A DNA stretch of 64,000 bases, taken from positions 682,001-746,000 of the forward strand of contig NZ_JAGQDG010000001.1 of the NCBI RefSeq assembly GCF_018069865.1, in the 5' to 3' direction. The translations under genes were made by a program, and so were the position numbers. The stretch comes from Ideonella paludis. GTDB lineage: Bacteria > Pseudomonadota > Gammaproteobacteria > Burkholderiales > Burkholderiaceae_C. The notes under the pieces were generated by a model. The model worked only from the letters and a program-made list of their open reading frames with translations, did no database searches and was not told the origin of the DNA. Shown here in pieces: positions 51,606 to 60,375 of the stretch; the stretch's first letter is position 1; each line of letters opens with the position of its first letter.

Positions 51606-51819
51606 AAGAGGATTCGTGAAGTGAGTGGGAACAGCACATGATGCTGCCACTGTCGGTCCCGAGCACGGCGCAGGGTTTTCGTTGACGGCGTGCAAACGCG
51701 CTGAACGCAGCGCCGGTCTGGGCCAGCTCAGCCTGCGCAGGCCGCCGTTCATCCCACGGCGTGGGCTATTCACGCGCAAGAGGCCGCAGATGAGCCAGCG
51801 GGCAGTCAGAATCGCGGCC

Positions 51820-53352
51820 ATGACTAAGCCCTCCTCACTTCCTCATCTTCTGCGTGGACTGGCGCTGGTGGCGACATTGGGCGCTGCCGCGGCTCAAGCC
51901 GCCCAGCCGCCCAGCCTGAGCCTCAAGCCGTGCCGTTTGCGAGGCGTGGAGCACGAGGCCCGCTGTGGCGTGCTCAAGCGCCCACTGGACCCGGCCCAGC
52001 CCCAAGGTACGCAGATCGACATCCACGTCGCGGTGTTGCCCGCCGTGGCGCGGGTCAAGAAGCCGGACCCGGTGCTGTTTTTTGCGGGCGGCCCGGGGCA
52101 GAGCGCGATTGACCTGGCCCAGCCCATCAGCCACATGCTGTCTCGCTTTGGCAACCGGCGCGATGTGGTTTTGATCGACCAGCGTGGCACGGGCCGCAGT
52201 GCCCCGCTGAAGTGCGCCGAGGAGTCGCCCGGCGAGCCTTTGGCCAAGAGCCTGCACATGGACCGCCAAAAGGAGCTGTGGCAGGCCTGTGTGAAGACCT
52301 TGAACGCCTTGCCGCATGGCGATTTGCGCCACTACACCACGAGCATTGCGATGGCAGATGCTGACGCCGTGCGGGCTGCTTTGGGCTATGAGCAGGTCAA
52401 CGTGGTGGGCGGCTCTTACGGCACGCGGGCCGTGTTGGAGTATTTGCGTCAGTTCCCGCAGCAGGTGCGCCGCGCCGTGCTGGATGGCGTCGCGCCACCT
52501 GACATGGTCTTGCCGGTCACCTTTGCGGCCGATGCTCAAGCCGCGATGGACAAGATGCTGGACGATTGCGAGGCCGACACGCGTTGTGCGTCGCTCTACC
52601 CCCGCTTGCGGGCCGATTGGAAGGGCTTGCTCGCTGAGCTGCCGAAAGAGGCGCGGGTGATCCATCCCATCACCGGGCGCGAAGAGCTGATGACGCTGAC
52701 GCGCGACCAGATCGCGCAATGGGCCCGGGTGCCGCACTACACGCCGGTCTTGGCCTCGGGCTTGCCCTATGCCATCACCGAAGCCAAGGCGGGTCGCTTC
52801 ACGCCTTTGGTCGGTTTGGTGTCGGCCATGACAGGGCCGCGCGGCATGGGCTTGGCGATGGGCATGCATTTCGCCGTGGTCTGCGCCGAGGACATGCCAC
52901 GCTTGGGCTCGGTGACGGAAGTTTCGACCGACTTTGGGGACGGCACGCTGCGCCAATACAAAGAGGCTTGTGCAGGCCTGACGGTAGGCACGCCGCCTGC
53001 CGCGTTCTATACCTTGCCGCCCGTGAAGGTGCCGACCTTGCTGCTGTCGGGCGGGGCGGACCCGGCCACTCCCCCACGCCATGGTGAGCGCGTCAGCAAA
53101 GCCCTAGGCCCCTTGGCCCGCCACGTGGTGATTCCGCAGGCCGGCCACGGCACTTTGAGCCTGGGTTGTGTGCGCGATGCAGTGTTCCGCTTTGTGGACA
53201 CCGAGTCCGCCAGCACCGCGCTCGAAGAGGTGACCGCCAGCGCCAAAGGCGCCAACTGCGCCCAGAAGATGCCGCGCCCGCCCGCCTTTGCACCCATTCA
53301 GCCTCGTGTTCCCCCCGTGACCGCCGGCAGCACCCCAGGAGCCCAGCGATGA
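51820..53352 (+). CDS. Exported alpha/beta hydrolase with TAP-like C-terminus
   Basis: A 510-residue protein. Signal (RGLALVATLGAAAAQAAQ), oxyanion region FFAGGPGQSAID, nucleophile VVGGSYGTRAVLEYL, Asp in LSGGADPATPPRHG and His in QAGHGTLSLGC. It resembles secreted tripeptidyl/prolyl aminopeptidases. Its stop overlaps the ABC ATPase start (ATGA), so it forms an operon with the exporter. An upstream in-frame ATG at 51790 is possible. Confidence 0.88.
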   Translation: MTKPSSLPHLLRGLALVATLGAAAAQAAQPPSLSLKPCRLRGVEHEARCGVLKRPLDPAQPQGTQIDIHVAVLPAVARVKKPDPVLFFAGGPGQSAIDLAQPISHMLSRFGNRRDVVLIDQRGTGRSAPLKCAEESPGEPLAKSLHMDRQKELWQACVKTLNALPHGDLRHYTTSIAMADADAVRAALGYEQVNVVGGSYGTRAVLEYLRQFPQQVRRAVLDGVAPPDMVLPVTFAADAQAAMDKMLDDCEADTRCASLYPRLRADWKGLLAELPKEARVIHPITGREELMTLTRDQIAQWARVPHYTPVLASGLPYAITEAKAGRFTPLVGLVSAMTGPRGMGLAMGMHFAVVCAEDMPRLGSVTEVSTDFGDGTLRQYKEACAGLTVGTPPAAFYTLPPVKVPTLLLSGGADPATPPRHGERVSKALGPLARHVVIPQAGHGTLSLGCVRDAVFRFVDTESASTALEEVTASAKGANCAQKMPRPPAFAPIQPRVPPVTAGSTPGAQR

Positions 53353-54170
53353 TTGAAGTCAGCAGCTTGAGCAAGCGCTTTGTGCAAGGCAGCGGCAAAA
53401 AGGCCCAGACCGTGCAGGCCGTCAGCGGCGTGAGTTGGCGTGCGGCCAATGGCCAGATCACGGGCCTGCTCGGCCCCAACGGCGCGGGCAAGACCACCTC
53501 CCTGCGCATGGTGGCCGGGCTCATCGCTCCCGATGAAGGCGAGGTCCGTGTGGATGGCATTCATGTGGCCACCGAGACGCAGCGCGCCCTGGCCCGCTTG
53601 GGGGCGCTGTCCGACGCGCGTGGGCTCTATCCCCGCCTCACCGCCCGCGAGAACATCGTCTACTTTGGCCGCCTGCATGGTTTGAGTGCAGCCGCCGCTG
53701 CGGCTCGGGCCGAGCATCTCGCTCAGTTGTTGGAGATGAAGCCCCTGCTGGACCGGCGCACCGAGGGCTTCAGCCAGGGTGAGCGCATGAAGACGGCGCT
53801 GGCGCGTGCGCTGGTGCATGACCCCGCCAACATCATCTTGGATGAGCCGACCAACGGCTTGGATGTGCTGGCCACCCGCGCCTTGCGCGAGGCCTTGCGG
53901 CGCTTGCGCGATGAGGAAGGCAAGTGCATCGTGTTCTCTTCGCACATCATGCAAGAGGTGGAGCGTCTTTGCGACCAGGTGGTGGTGATCTCGCACGGGC
54001 GCACCGTGGCTGAAGGCACCGTGCCTGACCTGCTGCAGCGCGCAGGAGAGCACGATTTTGAAGAAGCATTCATCGGCCTGGCCTTCAGCGCAGAGGAGCG
54101 GCGGGCGGCCGGTTTGCAATTGGCGCGCGAGGCCGTGCCGGGCCACGCCGCGCAAGGGGGGGTTCTGTGA
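53349..54170 (+). CDS. ABC transporter ATP-binding protein (NatA-like)
   Basis: A 273-residue ATPase. Walker A LLGPNGAGKTTSL, signature FSQGERMKTALARALV, Walker B NIILDEPTNGLD, switch FSSHIMQEVERL. It pairs with the permease gene that overlaps its stop. Belongs to the ABC-2 export group; the substrate (Na+ or a drug/peptide) is not determined. Confidence 0.92.
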   Translation: MIEVSSLSKRFVQGSGKKAQTVQAVSGVSWRAANGQITGLLGPNGAGKTTSLRMVAGLIAPDEGEVRVDGIHVATETQRALARLGALSDARGLYPRLTARENIVYFGRLHGLSAAAAAARAEHLAQLLEMKPLLDRRTEGFSQGERMKTALARALVHDPANIILDEPTNGLDVLATRALREALRRLRDEEGKCIVFSSHIMQEVERLCDQVVVISHGRTVAEGTVPDLLQRAGEHDFEEAFIGLAFSAEERRAAGLQLAREAVPGHAAQGGVL

Positions 54171-55333
54171 TGTCGCGCTTTTGGATTGTCTTGGTCAAAG
54201 AGCTGGTGGACGCGCTGCGCGACCGCCGCACCTTGTTCACCGTGCTGCTCAGTTCAGTGGCCATGGGCCCACTGGTGCTGGTCTTGTTGTCCACCATGAT
54301 TGGCAATATCGAGAAGCGGGCCGATGCCCGGGAAATGGTGGTGATGGGGCTGGAGCATGCCCCTACGCTGCGCAACTACCTCGAGCGCCAAACCTTCACG
54401 CTGACCGAAGCGCCGGCCGACTTTGAGAAGCAGCTCAAAGACAGCAAGCTGGGCGACCCGGTGCTGGTGGTGGGCGAGACGTTTGAGGCCGAGCTGGCGG
54501 CCGGTGAGGTGCCGGTGGTGGAGCTGGTCACCGCCAGCGCGAATCAGCGCGCCCAAGCCAGCGTCGGCCGCTTAACGCGCGTCTTGCAAGGCTTCAACCA
54601 AGAGCAGAGCATGCTGCGCATCTCGATGCGTGGCGTGGCTCCGGCCAGCTTGCAATCCATGGCTGTGCAAGAGCGGGATCTCTCCAACGCGTCGGCTCGG
54701 GCGGCTCAGCTCACGGGCATGCTGCCCTTCTTCACCCTGATGGCCGTGCTCTATGGTTGCCTGGCGGCGGCGCTAGACACCACGGCGGGCGAGCGCGAGC
54801 GTGGCTCCTTGGAACCCTTGCTGATGAACCCCACCGAGCGCTTTACCTTGGTGGCCGGCAAGTGGGGCGCGGTGGCGGCCATTGGTTGGCTCATTGGTGC
54901 GTTAGGCTGCCTGAGCTTTTTGCCAGGCCAGTGGTTGCTGCGCAGTGAGAGCCTGGCAGCCATGTTCCGCTATGGTTGGGTCGAGCTGAGTGGCTTCTTG
55001 GCGGTGCTGACGCCGCTGGTCGGGGCGCTGGCGGCCATGCTGATGGCCTTGGCCATTCGCTGCAAGAGCTACAAGGAGGCCCAGGCCAATGCGGCGGTGA
55101 TGCTGACCTTGGTGTCCTTGCTGCCCATGCTCGCCATGTTCAACCAAGAAGGTGAGCAGGCTTGGCACTTGACCGTGCCGGTGCTGGCCCAGTTCACCTT
55201 GATGGGCCGGGTGTTGCGCGGCGAGACCATGGGCATGACCGACTTTCTCATCCCTGCGGCCATGAGTGTGGCGATTGCACTGCTGGCGCTGGCCTATGTG
55301 GCCAAGCAACTGACGCGGGCCGCGGTCAAGTGA
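54170..55333 (+). CDS. ABC-2 type permease (NatB-like)
   Basis: A 387-residue membrane protein. First helix near residue 20, a large extracytoplasmic domain (about 50-175), then five helices. The ABC-2 hallmark AALDTTAGERERGSLEPLLMNPTERFTLVAGK is present. ATG at 54170 shares one base with the ATPase stop. Forms the membrane part of the exporter encoded with 53349-54170. Confidence 0.9.
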   Translation: MSRFWIVLVKELVDALRDRRTLFTVLLSSVAMGPLVLVLLSTMIGNIEKRADAREMVVMGLEHAPTLRNYLERQTFTLTEAPADFEKQLKDSKLGDPVLVVGETFEAELAAGEVPVVELVTASANQRAQASVGRLTRVLQGFNQEQSMLRISMRGVAPASLQSMAVQERDLSNASARAAQLTGMLPFFTLMAVLYGCLAAALDTTAGERERGSLEPLLMNPTERFTLVAGKWGAVAAIGWLIGALGCLSFLPGQWLLRSESLAAMFRYGWVELSGFLAVLTPLVGALAAMLMALAIRCKSYKEAQANAAVMLTLVSLLPMLAMFNQEGEQAWHLTVPVLAQFTLMGRVLRGETMGMTDFLIPAAMSVAIALLALAYVAKQLTRAAVK

Positions 55334-55349: not shown

Positions 55350-55718
55350 TCACGCCGCATTGAGCAGGCGCCAGACCTCGTCCTGCCACGGCAGGGCGCA
55401 GACCAAGCGGTTGTAGTAGAGCGCGGACTCATTGACCGAGAGCACATCGCCGCTCTCGCTCACCAACCGCAGGTTGGTCACCACGCACATCGGGTTGGCC
55501 ATGGCCAATACACCGGACCCTATCTGAACCCAGTCCCAGGCCAACCCCGCGCCTGGGGTGTTGCCCTGTTCGGCCCACAAGGTCTGCCCACTTGTGGGAT
55601 GTTCACCATCTGCGGCAAAAGTAACGCACGACCCTAGGTGAACAAATCTTAAACGGCGTTTAGTATTCGCCTGACAAAATATGGTCGGCCAAGAATAGAG
55701 CGACCAGGGAGGTGGCAT
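55350..55718 (-). CDS. Hypothetical protein, start uncertain
   Basis: The C-terminal part (DWVQIGSGVLAMANPMCVVTNLRLVSESGDVLSVNESALYYNRLVCALPWQDEVWRLL) looks like a genuine small protein resembling other Burkholderiales hypotheticals. The N-terminus is unclear. An ATG at 55718 adds a poorly protein-like stretch, and a TTG at 55580 would give a 76-residue product. It is convergent with the permease and divergent from luxR. Function unknown. Confidence 0.45.
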   Translation of the reverse strand: MPPPWSLYSWPTIFCQANTKRRLRFVHLGSCVTFAADGEHPTSGQTLWAEQGNTPGAGLAWDWVQIGSGVLAMANPMCVVTNLRLVSESGDVLSVNESALYYNRLVCALPWQDEVWRLLNAA

Positions 55719-55873: not shown

Positions 55874-56590
55874 ATGCTGAGCCCAAGTTTTCAGGCCATC
55901 ATGGCCGTGAAGAGCCAGGTGGAGTTCAAAGACGAGATCATTCGGTTCGCTGGTGATCTGGGGTTTAAGTACGTGTCTGCCATGACCGTGATTGACCACT
56001 CTTTGACCCACTCTGAGTTTTTTAACGTCGATAACATGCCGCTGGCTTGGCAAGAAGCCAGCGCAGGCCTGAGCGAGTCCTTCCGACGTGACCCCGTGAT
56101 GCAGCACTGCAAGCGCGGCACGGTGCCCATCATTTGGGATCAAACCACCTATGTCCAGCAGGGCCTTGGCTCTCACTGGGAGGAGCAGGCCGCCTATGGC
56201 TACCGCACCGGCATTGCCTTGGCCTTGCACATGCCTGAGGGCCGCCACTTTGTGATGGGGGTGGACCGTGACCGCCGCCTGCCCAAAAGCCCCATCAGCC
56301 TGACACGCATGGTGGCGTCTTTGCAGTTGTTTGCGGTGCACGCGCAGGAAGCGGCGTCTCGGCTCTTTGTGCCGGTAGAGACCCAGGCCCAAAGGCCTTC
56401 TTTGACCCGGCGCGAGCTGGAATGCCTGAGCTGGACCATGGAAGGCAAAACAGCCTGGGAGACCGGGGCCATCCTGTCCATCAGCGAGCGCACGGCCGTG
56501 CTTCATTTGCAAAACGCCATGCAAAAGCTGGGTGCCGTCAGTAAGCATCAAGCCGTACTCAAGGCCATGCGCCTGGGCTTGATCCGGTAA
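55874..56590 (+). CDS. LuxR-type regulator with autoinducer-binding domain (LuxR solo)
   Basis: A 238-residue regulator. The autoinducer-binding domain (about 15-165) keeps W59, D73, P74, W88 and G113, equivalents of the acyl-homoserine-lactone pocket residues. The usual Tyr four residues after W59 is Ser63. The GerE HTH (175-235) holds LTRRELECLSWTMEGKTAWETGAILSISERTAVLHLQNAMQKLG. ATG at 55874 has GGGGG upstream. No luxI synthase is in the window. A lux box follows its stop, before the peptide gene. A weaker CTG-N10-CAG (55804-55819) precedes luxR itself. Confidence 0.9.
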   Translation: MLSPSFQAIMAVKSQVEFKDEIIRFAGDLGFKYVSAMTVIDHSLTHSEFFNVDNMPLAWQEASAGLSESFRRDPVMQHCKRGTVPIIWDQTTYVQQGLGSHWEEQAAYGYRTGIALALHMPEGRHFVMGVDRDRRLPKSPISLTRMVASLQLFAVHAQEAASRLFVPVETQAQRPSLTRRELECLSWTMEGKTAWETGAILSISERTAVLHLQNAMQKLGAVSKHQAVLKAMRLGLIR

Positions 56591-56600
56591 AACCAGACAC

Positions 56601-56616
56601 CTGTCAGAGTTGACAG
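56601..56616 (+). promoter_or_regulatory. lux box upstream of the peptide gene
   Basis: CTGTCAGAGTTGACAG has perfect arms CTGTCA/TGACAG around GAGT and fits CTG-N10-CAG, the core of LuxR-family sites. It lies 10 bases after the luxR stop and 74 bases before the peptide ATG. A TTGACG at 56633-56638 could be a -35 element; the -10 is unclear. Confidence 0.72.
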
Positions 56617-56690
56617 TGTGAGTGCTTCGCGATTGACGCTCCAATAGAGACACGCAGGATTTGCTGCGCTCTTGAAGATCCGAGGCCCCT

Positions 56691-56897
56691 ATGTATCAAG
56701 TCACTCACATTCATGCACAACCCTCCTACACGGCCACTCCTGTCGTGTCGACTGGCGCGGAACTGGTCGAGCTGGACATGGCGGCCCTGCAATGCGTGGC
56801 CGGTGGCCTCGCGGCGTCTGCAGGAGAAAGCACCGAGCTGCCTTACCGCGGCTGGAGCAGCGGCGGCAACGACTCGCTGCCCTATCGCGGCTGGTAA
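56691..56897 (+). CDS. Double-glycine leader peptide precursor with two LPYRGW repeats
   Basis: A 68-residue precursor. The leader (1-39) ends ELDMAALQCVAGG, a classic GG cleavage site preceded by hydrophobic and acidic positions. The 29-residue product region contains LPYRGW twice (residues 50-55 and 63-68, the second at the exact C-terminus). They are separated by SSGGNDS, which has another GG. The DNA of the two repeats (56838-56855, 56877-56894) differs at two third-codon bases, so the peptide is under selection or an old duplication. GAGG lies five bases before the ATG. Next genes: HlyD adaptor and C39 ABC exporter. No modification enzyme nearby. Likely an exported signal or bacteriocin-like peptide. 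Confidence 0.8.
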   Translation: MYQVTHIHAQPSYTATPVVSTGAELVELDMAALQCVAGGLAASAGESTELPYRGWSSGGNDSLPYRGW

Positions 56898-56942
56898 TGG
56901 GTTGGTAGCGGCGCGGGCTGCTTGCAGCCGGAGCGCGCCGCC

Positions 56943-58202
56943 ATGAGTTTTTTTCGTCCCGAATCCCTCCACAGCCGGCGTCAGGCCTGGTTGGGCTCCA
57001 TCCATGTGATGCAGCCTCTGGGCTTGGCTTGGCTGACCTTTGGGGTGCTGGCGACGCTTGTCGCCGTCAGCACCTTTCTTTTTCTAGGTGAGTTGCCGCG
57101 CACCACGCGTTTGACCGGGCTGGTGGTGCCGCAAAAGGGGTGGGTTCGGGTCGTGCCGCCGGTGGCCGGGCGCTTGCTGGCGGTGGAGGTCGAAGAGGGG
57201 CAGCGTGTGGCCGAAGGGGCCGCGCTGTTCACGCTGGAGGTCGTCTCTCCTCAATGGGGCGAGGCGACGTCGTTGGGGCTGCGGCAGAGCTTTGAGGCTC
57301 GGCGCCGCAGCTTGGACGAAGCGGGCAAGCAGTCGCAGATGCTGCTGCTCGAACAGTCCAAAGGGTTGGCGCAGCGCTTGGCCGCTGCCCGCCGTGAAGC
57401 TGCCGTGTTGGCCACTCAGTCAGCCCTGCAGCAGCAGCGGCAGGCATTGGCAGAGCGAGCGGTGGCGCGGCTCGAGACACTGGTTGCGGAGCAGTTTGTT
57501 TCAGCAGCTCAGGTTCAAGAAAAAACAGGGGAGCTACTGAGCAGTAGGGCGGAGGGCGCGGCGATCGCCCGCCAGCGCGAGGCGCTGGATGCGGAGATCG
57601 CTGCGCTGGAAGCCCAAGCCCGCCAGTTGCCGCTGCTCGCCGCCCAACGTCTGGGTGAGTTGGAGCGCGAACATGGCGAGTTGGCCGAGTTGGCGACCCG
57701 CGAAAGCGGCAGCCAAGCGCCGCGTCGTGTGGCGGTGCAAGCGCCTGTTGCAGGCACCCTCTCAGCCGTTCATGCCAGCCGGGGCCAAGCCGTGTCGCCG
57801 GATGCTGCGGTGCTGACCTTGACGCCCGAGGGCGAGCCCTTGGTGGCCTATCTCTATGCGCCCTCCAGTGCTTTGGGCTTTGTGCGGGTGGGCCAAGCCG
57901 TGAAGCTGCGGGTCCAGGCCTTTCCCCATCAAAAATTTGGCTGGCTGCCCGGGCAAGTGTCCGCGGTGGCTCAAGCTTCAGCCCAGGCCGAGGAGCTGGC
58001 CCAGGTGGCCGGGTTGGGGCGCGGCGCGGCGGTCGAGCCGCTCTATCGCATCACGGTGGCCCTGCGCCAGACGAATCTGACCGCTGCAGGTGCTGCGCGC
58101 CCGCTGCGCGCCGGCATGCAGTTGGAGGCCGACGTGGTGCTGGAGCAGCGGCGCCTGGTTGAGTGGCTGTTTGAGCCACTCTTGGCCTGGGCTCGGCGAT
58201 GA
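56943..58202 (+). CDS. HlyD-family membrane fusion protein
   Basis: A 419-residue adaptor. Transmembrane helix at about 27-48 (LGLAWLTFGVLATLVAVSTFLF), lipoyl half-motif VVPPVAGRLLAVEVEEGQRVAEG, long coiled coil (about 115-255), second lipoyl half APVAGTLSAVHASRGQAVS, and a beta-barrel domain. It bridges the exporter to an outer-membrane channel, as in peptide export systems. It starts 45 bases after the peptide gene. Confidence 0.9.
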   Translation: MSFFRPESLHSRRQAWLGSIHVMQPLGLAWLTFGVLATLVAVSTFLFLGELPRTTRLTGLVVPQKGWVRVVPPVAGRLLAVEVEEGQRVAEGAALFTLEVVSPQWGEATSLGLRQSFEARRRSLDEAGKQSQMLLLEQSKGLAQRLAAARREAAVLATQSALQQQRQALAERAVARLETLVAEQFVSAAQVQEKTGELLSSRAEGAAIARQREALDAEIAALEAQARQLPLLAAQRLGELEREHGELAELATRESGSQAPRRVAVQAPVAGTLSAVHASRGQAVSPDAAVLTLTPEGEPLVAYLYAPSSALGFVRVGQAVKLRVQAFPHQKFGWLPGQVSAVAQASAQAEELAQVAGLGRGAAVEPLYRITVALRQTNLTAAGAARPLRAGMQLEADVVLEQRRLVEWLFEPLLAWARR

Positions 58203-58212
58203 GGACGGCAGG

Positions 58213-60375
58213 ATGAGCTTGTCTGCTGCCGACCCGTCCCGGCTGAACCTCGGCTGGCGCCGCTCCACCGTGCCGATGGTGTTGCAAACCGAGGCGGCCG
58301 AATGTGGCCTGGCCTGCTTGGCCATGGTGGCCAGCGCACATGGCTTGCGGGTGGACCTGCCCGCTTTGCGGGCACGCTTTCGCATCTCCATGAAGGGTTG
58401 CACGGCGGCCGACCTGGCGCAGATGGGCCAGAGCCTGGGCTTGGCACCCCGGGCCTTGCGGGCGGAGTTGGTGCATCTGCCGCAGCTCAAATTGCCCTGT
58501 ATCTTGCATTGGGACCTGAACCATTTTGTGGTGTTGGTCAGTGTCAAGGGCGATGAGCTGACGGTGCACGACCCCGCGCGTGGCATTCGTCGCTTGAGCG
58601 CGGCGGAGCTCTCGCCGCATTTCACCGGCGTGGTGTTGGAGTTCACTCCCACGCCCAGCTTTCGCAGCGGTGATGAGCGCCAGCCTGTGCGCCTGAGGGC
58701 GCTGCTGGGCCCGGTGACGGGTTTGCGCCGTGCCTTGGCCCAGGTGCTCTTGCTGGCCTTGGCGCTGGAGCTGTTCGTGATGCTGTCGCCCTTCTTCATG
58801 CAGTGGGTGGTGGATGGGGTGTTGGTGAGCGGTGAGCGCCAGCTGTTGCCCACCTTGGCGGTGGGTTTTGGGCTCTTGGTGCTGATCCAAGGCCTGACGG
58901 CGGCGGGGCGCTCTTGGGCCGTGTTGCACTTGTCGGCGACCTTGCAGTTGCAGTGGATGGGCCAAGTATTCGCTCATTTACTGCGTTTGCCCATGGCCTG
59001 GTTTGAGCGCCGCCACACCGGTGATGTCTGGTCGCGTTTTGGTGCGGTTCAGCAGATTCAAGACAAGCTGACCGGCGCTTTTGCCGAAGGCCTGATTGAC
59101 GGTGTGATGGTGCTGCTGACCCTGGTGCTGATGCTGGTCTACAGCCCGCTGCTGGCCAGCTTGGCGGTGGGGGCGGTGCTGCTGTATGCCTTGCTGCGCG
59201 CGCTGCTGTGGCGCCCGCTGCGCGAGGCGGCTGAGGAGGCCTTGATCCATGAGGCCAAGCGCTCCAGTCACTTTTTAGAGTCCTTACGCGGCATGGGCGC
59301 CATCAAGCTGTTCAATGCCGAGGCTTTGCGCCAGTCGGGCTTTATGAACTTGGTGGTGGATGCGATGAATGCCGGGCTCACCGTGCGCAAGCTGGAGCTG
59401 GCTTTGGCGGTGGTGCACCGGGTGGTGTTCGGGCTGGAGCGCGTCGGCGTGGTCTGGCTGGGTGCGGTGTTGGTGATGGACCAACACCTGTCGCTGGGCA
59501 TGTTGTTCGCCTTCATGGCCTACCAAGATGTGTTCGCTCAGCGCACCTCGGCTTTGATCGACAAGGTCCATGAGCTGCGCCTGGTGCGGCTGCAGGCCGA
59601 GCGTTTGTCCGACATTGTGTTGACGGCACCGGAGGCGGACGAGCCGGGGGCTTGGGCGGCCAAGCCACCTGACGGGGTGGTGGCGGGTTCGCTGACGCTG
59701 CGCGATGTGCACTTTCGCTACTCAGACCTGGAGCCCGAGGTGCTGCGCGGTGTGAGCTTTGAGGTGCAGCCCGGCGAGTCGGTGGCCATTGCCGGGCCGT
59801 CTGGCGGCGGCAAGACCACCTTGCTCAAGCTCTTGCTGGGCATCCATGCGCCCAGCCAGGGCGAATTGGTGGTGGACGGCCAGCCGCTGGCTCAGCTGGG
59901 TGCCAAGGCCTGGCGGCAGCGGGTCGGGGCGGTGCTGCAAGAGGAGCCCTTGTTCGCGGGCTCGGTGGCCGACAACATCAGCTTCTTTGCGCCGGACGCC
60001 GACCCCGCCTGGGTCGAGGAGTGCGCCAAGCTCGCCTCGGTGCACGACGAGATCATGGCCATGCCCATGGGCTATGCCACCTTGGTGGGCGATATGGGGA
60101 CGGTCTTATCGGCCGGGCAAAAGCAGCGCGTGTTGCTGGCGCGGGCGCTGTACCGGCGGCCCAGCGTGCTGCTGCTGGACGAAGCCACCAGTGCGCTGGA
60201 CGTGGAGCGGGAGCGGGCGGTGAACGCGGCGGTGGCCGCGCTCAAGCTGACCCGCATCATCGTGGCCCACCGCCCCGAGACCATTGCCAGCGCTGACCGC
60301 GTGATCGTGCTGGTGGGCGGGGTGGTGCGCGAAGACAGGCCTATTCGGCCTGTCAATACCAACAGTGAAAGTTAG
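58213..60375 (+). CDS. Peptidase-containing ABC transporter (C39 domain)
   Basis: A 720-residue bacteriocin-type exporter. The N-terminal C39 peptidase has Gln25, Cys31 (AAECGLACL), His105 (LNHFVVLV) and Asp121 (VHDPARG), all catalytic positions intact. Six transmembrane helices lie at about 170-440. The ATPase has Walker A GPSGGGKTTLL, signature LSAGQKQR, Walker B VLLLDEATSALD and the switch His in VAHRPET. It would cut the GG leader of the 56691 peptide and export the product. ATG at 58213 is 10 bases after the HlyD stop. Confidence 0.93.
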   Translation: MSLSAADPSRLNLGWRRSTVPMVLQTEAAECGLACLAMVASAHGLRVDLPALRARFRISMKGCTAADLAQMGQSLGLAPRALRAELVHLPQLKLPCILHWDLNHFVVLVSVKGDELTVHDPARGIRRLSAAELSPHFTGVVLEFTPTPSFRSGDERQPVRLRALLGPVTGLRRALAQVLLLALALELFVMLSPFFMQWVVDGVLVSGERQLLPTLAVGFGLLVLIQGLTAAGRSWAVLHLSATLQLQWMGQVFAHLLRLPMAWFERRHTGDVWSRFGAVQQIQDKLTGAFAEGLIDGVMVLLTLVLMLVYSPLLASLAVGAVLLYALLRALLWRPLREAAEEALIHEAKRSSHFLESLRGMGAIKLFNAEALRQSGFMNLVVDAMNAGLTVRKLELALAVVHRVVFGLERVGVVWLGAVLVMDQHLSLGMLFAFMAYQDVFAQRTSALIDKVHELRLVRLQAERLSDIVLTAPEADEPGAWAAKPPDGVVAGSLTLRDVHFRYSDLEPEVLRGVSFEVQPGESVAIAGPSGGGKTTLLKLLLGIHAPSQGELVVDGQPLAQLGAKAWRQRVGAVLQEEPLFAGSVADNISFFAPDADPAWVEECAKLASVHDEIMAMPMGYATLVGDMGTVLSAGQKQRVLLARALYRRPSVLLLDEATSALDVERERAVNAAVAALKLTRIIVAHRPETIASADRVIVLVGGVVREDRPIRPVNTNSES

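Follow-up and report, generated by a model that had tools for sequence, protein, structure and literature searches.

A LuxR receptor beside an encoded peptide: a probable peptide-based quorum-sensing circuit in Ideonella paludis and its relatives

Introduction

What does a LuxR receptor sense when its genome holds no match to LuxI and the gene behind its lux box encodes a small peptide? The question is raised by a locus in a 64,000-nucleotide stretch of the Ideonella paludis genome (the window; GCF_018069865.1, contig NZ_JAGQDG010000001.1, positions 682,001 to 746,000), in which a luxR gene, a lux box, the gene of a 68-residue double-glycine (GG) precursor and those of an HlyD-type adaptor and a C39 peptidase-ABC exporter follow one another. 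LuxR receptors are the textbook sensors of acyl-homoserine lactones (AHLs), and many LuxR 'solos' have no known ligand. An earlier note, made from the DNA letters, had read the locus as LuxR-controlled secretion of a peptide that may serve either as pheromone or in antagonism. Comparison with relatives suggests, with a probability that we put at roughly 0.7, a peptide-based quorum-sensing circuit in which a ribosomally made pheromone acts on an AHL-type LuxR receptor. LuxR, acting through the lux box, would drive the operon of precursor, adaptor and exporter; the exporter would cut after the GG and secrete the peptide, whose functional unit would be a hexapeptide x-P-x-x-x-W (LPYRGW, present twice here); and the peptide, or a processed fragment of it, would re-enter cells and bind the autoinducer pocket of LuxR, closing a self-inducing loop that an RsaM-family protein would modulate. 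From sequence we infer that the peptide is secreted, taken up again and bound, that it activates LuxR and does not inhibit it, and which genes the circuit controls.

Results and discussion

Organisation of the locus

The luxR gene (55874..56590, + strand) encodes a protein in which the autoinducer-binding (Autoind_bind) and GerE domains both exceed their Pfam cut-offs, and which its orthologues and the co-variation of its pocket lead us to propose as the peptide receptor. It is followed on the same strand by the lux box CTGTCAGAGTTGACAG (56601..56616), the precursor open reading frame (ORF, 56691..56897), which has corresponding ORFs in relatives, the gene for the periplasmic adaptor (56943..58202, Pfam HlyD_3 and HlyD_D23) and that for the exporter (58213..60375, with Peptidase_C39, ABC_membrane and ABC_tran all above their cut-offs), the gaps between the genes being 100, 45 and 10 bases. 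The elements named in the earlier note are all present; the extent that it gave the locus was too small, as it overlooked a divergent rsaM-family gene (55350..55718, - strand). GG precursor, HlyD and a C39 domain fused to an ABC exporter share one operon, in which removal of the leader and secretion of the product would fall to the exporter. No immunity gene is obvious among the window ORFs or in the operon, and no two-component receptor among the immediate neighbours of the exporter operon, although neither was searched for systematically.

In the precursor the GG forms residues 38-39 and closes a predicted leader of residues 1-39, ending AGG, so that the remaining core would be 29 residues long. 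The motif LPYRGW, which corresponds to the xPxxxW motif of relatives, occupies residues 50-55 (56838..56855, + strand) and, at the C-terminus, residues 63-68 (56877..56894, + strand); the two copies are the same in protein, and the differences in their DNA are all synonymous. The precursor gave weak matches far below the cut-offs, and nothing more, in Pfam and NCBIfam. Because it is short and variable, and a direct search of the genome contigs with it found no relative, relatives were traced through LuxR.

Conservation of the module

The family scan with LuxR, at E ≤ 1e-20, matched 88 of 299 family genomes, some of the matches being distant LuxRs, and a scan of named genomes, from which the best 80 of 166 confirmed stretches were kept, includes among those 80 loci Ideonella, Roseateles, Paucibacter, Mitsuaria, Rubrivivax, Rhizobacter, Methylibium and Piscinibacter. 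A set of 157 loci was reduced to 131 distinct LuxR sequences from the Ideonella/Roseateles/Rubrivivax group. HlyD is found at most 1 kb downstream of LuxR in 74 of the 80 named loci; for a set of 63 loci the count is 48, or 50 when up to 6 kb is allowed. The locus is part of a conserved module of LuxR, lux box and small peptide ORF, mostly joined by HlyD and C39-ABC.

The box CTGTCAGAGTTGACAG is the only exact match to the pattern CTGTMAGANYTGACAG across the 4.8 Mb genome, and the box downstream of LuxR is kept with at most one mismatch in 122 and at most two in 128 of the 131 distinct loci. The exact pattern occurs at 65 sites in 52 of 64 genomes, against a single site for the reversed pattern, and 48 of these 65 sites, judged by their position, are the LuxR-peptide promoter. 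The lux box stands at the promoter of the would-be signal gene, which here is the peptide gene. Elsewhere in the genome of I. paludis there are two boxes with one mismatch, one inside an ORF and the other (L100, G000:C19:90908) 90 nt 5' of an ORF starting MQVVCLDLEGVLVP, a possible second target.

The absence of luxI given in the earlier note extends to the whole genome, where the LuxI family PF00765 has no match. Nine of 64 genomes are positive for it, a count that lends something to a different explanation, in which the ligand of LuxR is something else, an AHL or a plant compound from outside, and the peptide is exported as an output, for instance antagonistic or host-directed. GG peptides with C39 exporters are commonly bacteriocins. 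LuxR solos responding to exogenous ligands are known (described in the available text of PMC10134790).

Four loci (L070, L081, L082 and L091) have three to five LuxR matches in an array with a single peptide gene. The idea that each paralogue of a tandem LuxR array has a peptide of its own was not borne out by the arrays.

A conserved hexapeptide

An ATG-initiated ORF that ends in P-x2-4-W, with at most three residues after the Trp, follows soon after the box in 117 of the 131 loci, while the antisense strand gave two such ORFs and dinucleotide shuffles 2.8 ± 1.5. For an exact PxxxW end the counts were 105 in sense, 0 in antisense and 0.2 in shuffles. The small ORF that the earlier note expected to find conserved beside the LuxR, HlyD and C39 genes of relatives is there, and its view of the locus as a peptide gene under LuxR control with a dedicated exporter stands, as do the anatomy and the lux box that it gave. 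A P-x2-4-W peptide was chosen by script in 119 loci, and a strict xPxxxW in 116; among the remaining 12, inspection by eye shows a variant in eleven, three of which keep xPxxxW, either within a longer ORF or downstream of a non-ATG start codon, and L040 alone has none. Trp-less peptides (LPRVS, LPRIGGL, LPRVG or similar) are found at L048, L225, L233, L247, L248, L259, L270 and L272, some of them in two copies.

Within the 116 hexamers, in which Pro and Trp were set by the search pattern and hence are fixed, position 1 is mostly Leu, Ala, Ser or Gly, position 3 usually Lys or Arg, and position 5 usually Gly or Thr. Each precursor holds one to five in-frame copies, behind a GG leader in most. 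Copies within a gene were compared as 72 pairs from 47 genes, of which 64 are identical in protein and 12 in DNA; the differences number 126 synonymous and 18 nonsynonymous, with roughly one site in four being synonymous. In some relatives the predicted core after the GG is exactly six residues long (APRPMW in L070, APGRRW in L080, LPKATW in L068 and SPFHRW in L217), and for this reason the six-residue unit is probably what matters in the peptide. The 29-residue product that the earlier note put forward is still one possible form of it; the conserved unit is six residues.

Short ORFs of this kind could instead be regulatory leader peptides, working by attenuation or ribosome arrest, or chance frames, and a genome of genus g12 (G308) does contain a 10-residue ORF ending in Trp, behind which a hairpin and a run of T can be made out by eye. 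Such an explanation sits badly with tandem in-frame copies, up to five of them, that diverge mainly synonymously and mostly follow a GG leader, with the excess of 117 sense over two antisense ORFs, and with the co-variation with LuxR set out below; it is strongly disfavoured and we hold it to be very improbable.

Precursors at L072, L073 and L076 (genus g29) have four PSPKGTW-type copies behind a very short leader, together with a degenerate box, and no adjacent HlyD and C39 pair.

Co-variation of the LuxR pocket and the hexapeptide

Whether LuxR reads the peptide was examined through the co-variation of the two. The LasR pocket, as given by a residue list that we assume to be right, was mapped onto the LuxR columns by profile alignment, and the last hexamer copy of each precursor was used. 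Distances in the LuxR ligand domain follow those of the hexapeptide (partial r 0.26, p 0.001) when the helix-turn-helix (HTH) domain, RsaM, ABC and HlyD are held constant in a test of the 88 loci with all four proteins; HTH, RsaM, ABC and HlyD, each tested likewise against the hexapeptide, gave p values from 0.08 (RsaM) to 0.94. The pocket was then taken apart from its surroundings in 115 loci with LuxR and RsaM. For the pocket columns alone partial r was 0.35 (p 0.002, the lowest value that 499 permutations allow), and for all other columns of the ligand domain it was 0.03-0.06, which is not significant. Thinning to 96, 75 and 45 loci left the pocket value at 0.35, 0.35 and 0.29, none of 400 draws of variability-matched non-pocket columns reached it, and when the leader took the place of the hexapeptide r was 0.07 for the pocket and 0.14 for the non-pocket columns. 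Without column 70, using pocket positions as checked in the available text of PMC12061423, r was 0.377 (p 0.001).

Individual residue pairs indicate what the pocket may be reading. Where position 5 of the hexapeptide is Gly, LuxR70 is other than Gly in 60 of 60 loci, often Trp, Tyr, Phe or Met, and where it is Thr, LuxR70 is Gly in 32 of 35, the comparison being limited to the 95 loci with Thr or Gly; in 17 independent contrasts, drawn like those that follow on a tree built without the pocket columns, 15 changes were as predicted, none was opposite and two were unchanged. LuxR101 is Lys, Arg, His or Gln in 0 of 76 loci with Lys or Arg at position 3 and in 25 of 39 with another residue there (nine contrasts predicted, none opposite, six unchanged). 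Gly at position 4 goes with LuxR55 Thr in 40 of 56 loci, against 9 of 59 otherwise (10 predicted to one opposite, eight unchanged), and Ala at position 1 with LuxR115 Cys in 20 of 26, against 8 of 89 otherwise. These four residue groupings were picked after the table had been viewed, whereas a scan of 781 column-by-position tests, made on independent pairs, was blind; its best test was again LuxR70 with position 5 (two-sided 6.1e-5, Bonferroni 0.048), and its six top entries all lie on pocket positions, namely 70, 51, 101, 63 and 55, position 70 being a pocket position by our assumed list.

We read these patterns as complementarity between receptor pocket and peptide in size and charge, and LuxR is probably the peptide's own receptor, a role to which the pocket co-variation points and which the earlier note overlooked. 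With slightly less confidence than in the circuit as a whole, though still favouring it, we suggest that the pocket reads the encoded hexapeptide residue by residue, through LuxR70 and position 5 (size), LuxR101 and position 3 (charge) and LuxR51, 55 and 63 and position 4. This would be a diversified and species-specific Gram-negative pheromone code replacing AHLs while LuxR, RsaM and lux box are kept, with sister branches whose bare peptides, some 9-20 residues long, lack a leader and have no exporter gene next to them. As between the pheromone and the antagonism that the earlier note had left side by side, the pheromone is favoured because of the six-residue cores, the pocket co-variation and the lack of an obvious immunity gene, for which no systematic search was made. 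An exogenous ligand with the peptide as mere output leaves unexplained why the LuxR pocket, and not the exporter, tracks the peptide. The predicted cores of six residues in relatives also speak against it, as does the persistence of the peptide without leader in g12, where two genomes have no match to this exporter at E ≤ 1e-80. We regard that explanation as unlikely.

The RsaM-family gene

The 122-residue product of the gene divergent from luxR was modelled with AlphaFold from a 59-row alignment (pLDDT 88). The top PDB match of the model in Foldseek is 4o2h, the crystal structure of the RsaM homologue BCAM1869 (E 1.2e-4), and VIA aligned the same two structures with a Z of 11.3 over 112 residues, the next entry having a Z of 4.3; entries ranking below 4o2h (Z ≤ 4.3) were taken as noise. 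By this model the protein has the RsaM fold. PF16245 (DUF4902) has matches at E ≤ 1 in 56 of 59 relatives, the strongest with E 1.5e-6, and on the window protein it stays below its cut-off (E 0.024, 15 bits against 25). The review PMC10710839, in its available text, links this family to RsaM and describes RsaM proteins as regulators of LuxI/LuxR circuits whose genes adjoin luxI and/or luxR.

A divergent rsaM lies within 600 nt of luxR in 79 of the 80 named and 61 of the 63 other loci, the remaining three having it at 1.6 (L257), 1.8 (L070) and 10 kb (L091), and 79 of 80 RsaM-positive genomes are also LuxR-positive. Elsewhere in the order RsaM matches occur in four of 399 genomes, two of them outside the family; one of these two has an adjoining LuxR, but little DNA downstream of it, and in the other LuxR was not seen in the fetched stretch.

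Leaderless forms

In genus g12 the box is present in 12 of 21 genomes, each time after a LuxR, and in 11 of the 12 it is followed by an ATG ORF with the motif, 10-37 residues long and leaderless, although in two a longer upstream start is possible; the twelfth box is followed by a non-ATG frame. One example, MQVLLPRNAW, has a ribosome-binding site and, by eye, a terminator. A match to this C39 exporter at E ≤ 1e-80 is lacking from two of these genomes, G026 and G308. A further 20 fetched loci with LuxR and RsaM, which are of a paralogue type and more distant except for L301, a full box-plus-exporter locus, include 12 with leaderless ORFs that carry P-R/T-x-G-W/F at or near the end (MICLPRVGW and MSQAAIAVRTSFPRTGW among them), against 0 in antisense and 0.04 in shuffles. 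A different palindrome, of CTACAAG type, precedes the ORF in three of the paralogue-type leaderless loci. At L255 a leaderless ORF has five near-identical TPRGG(S/G)W units, and nothing in the stretch fetched around it matched an exporter.

The core of the system would seem to consist of LuxR, RsaM and peptide, leader and exporter belonging to one branch, and the leaderless lineages must either release the peptide in another way or use it inside the cell. The latter prompts an explanation for the whole group in which the peptide is mainly an intracellular micropeptide, a ligand or inhibitor of LuxR, and its export a later addition or a means of lowering its level. The leaderless ORFs beside LuxR (11 of 12 g12 boxes and 12 of 20 paralogue-type loci) and the two g12 genomes without a C39 match would fit this. 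Set against them is the fact that export is usually kept, HlyD lying within 6 kb in 50 of 63 loci and within 1 kb in 74 of the 80 named ones, and leaderless Gram-positive peptides are secreted signals all the same (PMC10518010, available text). To our minds a mainly internal role is even less likely than an exogenous ligand, and a secreted pheromone sensed by LuxR is preferred to both.

Assessment of the proposed circuit

Several observations weigh against such a pheromone circuit. With regard to the peptide and its passage, the eight loci with LPR-type motifs lack the Trp, none of the operon genes was recognised as an importer, and in g12 as in many loci of the paralogue type there is no leader, nor was an exporter seen beside those examined, which means that not all members secrete by this route. 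A hexapeptide, at about 600-800 Da, is large for the small pocket of an AHL receptor, so that only a fragment of it may bind. The box that precedes the peptide in genus g29 is degenerate, with four mismatches, and the three genomes concerned carry luxI. As for the co-variation, phylogeny is not wholly removed by Mantel permutations, and RsaM has a weak link of its own to the peptide when ABC alone is held constant (r 0.10, p 0.017). Allowing for phylogeny leaves the pairing of LuxR115 with position 1 weak (4 of 11 contrasts, p 0.06). In the blind scan LuxR70 with position 5 is the only pair to survive Bonferroni correction, and four tests fell below p 0.005 against 3.9 by chance, the test being discrete and conservative. 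LasR Ala70, the counterpart of this best column, belongs to the pocket by our assumed list alone and has no occurrence in the available text of PMC12061423.

Relation to known systems

The locus resembles LuxI/LuxR circuits with RsaM in the LuxR ligand and HTH domains, in the lux box before the signal gene and in the rsaM beside luxR, and it differs from them in that a peptide gene with exporter occupies the position of luxI, which the I. paludis genome lacks. Asp73, Pro74, Trp88 and Gly113 are invariant in the LuxR relatives; the position of LasR Trp60 is Trp, Tyr or Phe, with a few Leu, Met or Ala, and that of LasR Tyr64 is variable. By this alignment the set of residues that we take to be the AHL contacts is not conserved in these LuxRs. 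Closest in arrangement are the rsaM-luxR solos of topology type 6, with divergent rsaM and luxR and no luxI, which PMC10710839 in its available text lists in Pelomonas, Kinneretia and others; the main text of that review never uses the word peptide, and its available text names no ligand for them.

Among solos of the PipR/OryR kind, the available text of PMC4981722 shows that a LuxR can respond to small peptides, as PipR does to peptide-like material including Ser-His-Ser, with an ABC importer required. Unlike the present peptide the PipR ligand is external, not encoded by the bacterium, and pipR is flanked by peptidase and importer genes whereas luxR here is flanked by rsaM and the peptide/exporter operon. 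A qualification is that a TAP-like alpha/beta hydrolase (Abhydrolase_1 and Abhydrolase_4 'TAP-like'; 51625-53352) is encoded about 2.5 kb upstream. Its relatives recur near the module in many loci, and it is a possible peptide-processing enzyme.

The leaderless communication peptides of Firmicutes, with RRNPP/Rgg receptors, share the tiny ORF beside the receptor gene and the species-specific peptide, and they differ in that the receptor candidate here is a LuxR, the host Gram-negative and most loci equipped with a GG leader and C39 exporter. Systems in which a double-glycine leader is likewise joined with C39-ABC and HlyD (ComC/ComA, class II bacteriocins and microcins) differ in that the conserved unit here is six residues, often repeated; compared with the bacteriocins and microcins, the predicted cores of the four relatives given above are of six residues, while that of the window would be 29.

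In a literature search whose sources included few subscription papers and no preprints, we met no case of a LuxR paired with an encoded peptide signal. The system would work like a pheromone circuit and yet falls outside both the AHL definition, as there is no luxI and the contact residues are not conserved, and that of RRNPP, as the receptor is another. If a whole clade reads encoded peptides in this way, ligands could be predicted from the sequence adjoining the receptor gene, quorum-sensing specificity could be reprogrammed by DNA alone, the usual division into Gram-positives that signal with peptides and Gram-negatives that signal with AHLs would no longer hold, and RsaM would be given an AHL-free natural circuit. 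Thanks to the residue pairings, a single reporter plasmid and synthetic peptides suffice to test the claim.

Further box sites and neighbouring genes

Extra boxes occur beside other genes. In genus g29 a class I lanthipeptide cluster (L184:4322-15438, also L179), comprising a Trp halogenase, LanB, LanC, three GG-type precursors, HlyD and C39-ABC, carries an exact box in the interval that separates the halogenase gene from lanB; these genomes have luxI, so that an AHL receptor may be what acts on this box instead. Extra boxes also repeatedly have beside or near them genes of a predicted secreted protein family (L176:4025-5071, L180:3774-4889, L182:3936-4907 and L179:14153-15157), three tested members of which gave no Pfam match at E ≤ 0.01; these genes are possible targets. 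Within the window, an ABC-2 type transporter pair of ATPase and permease (53346-55333) also stands beside the module in many relatives, though not in all.

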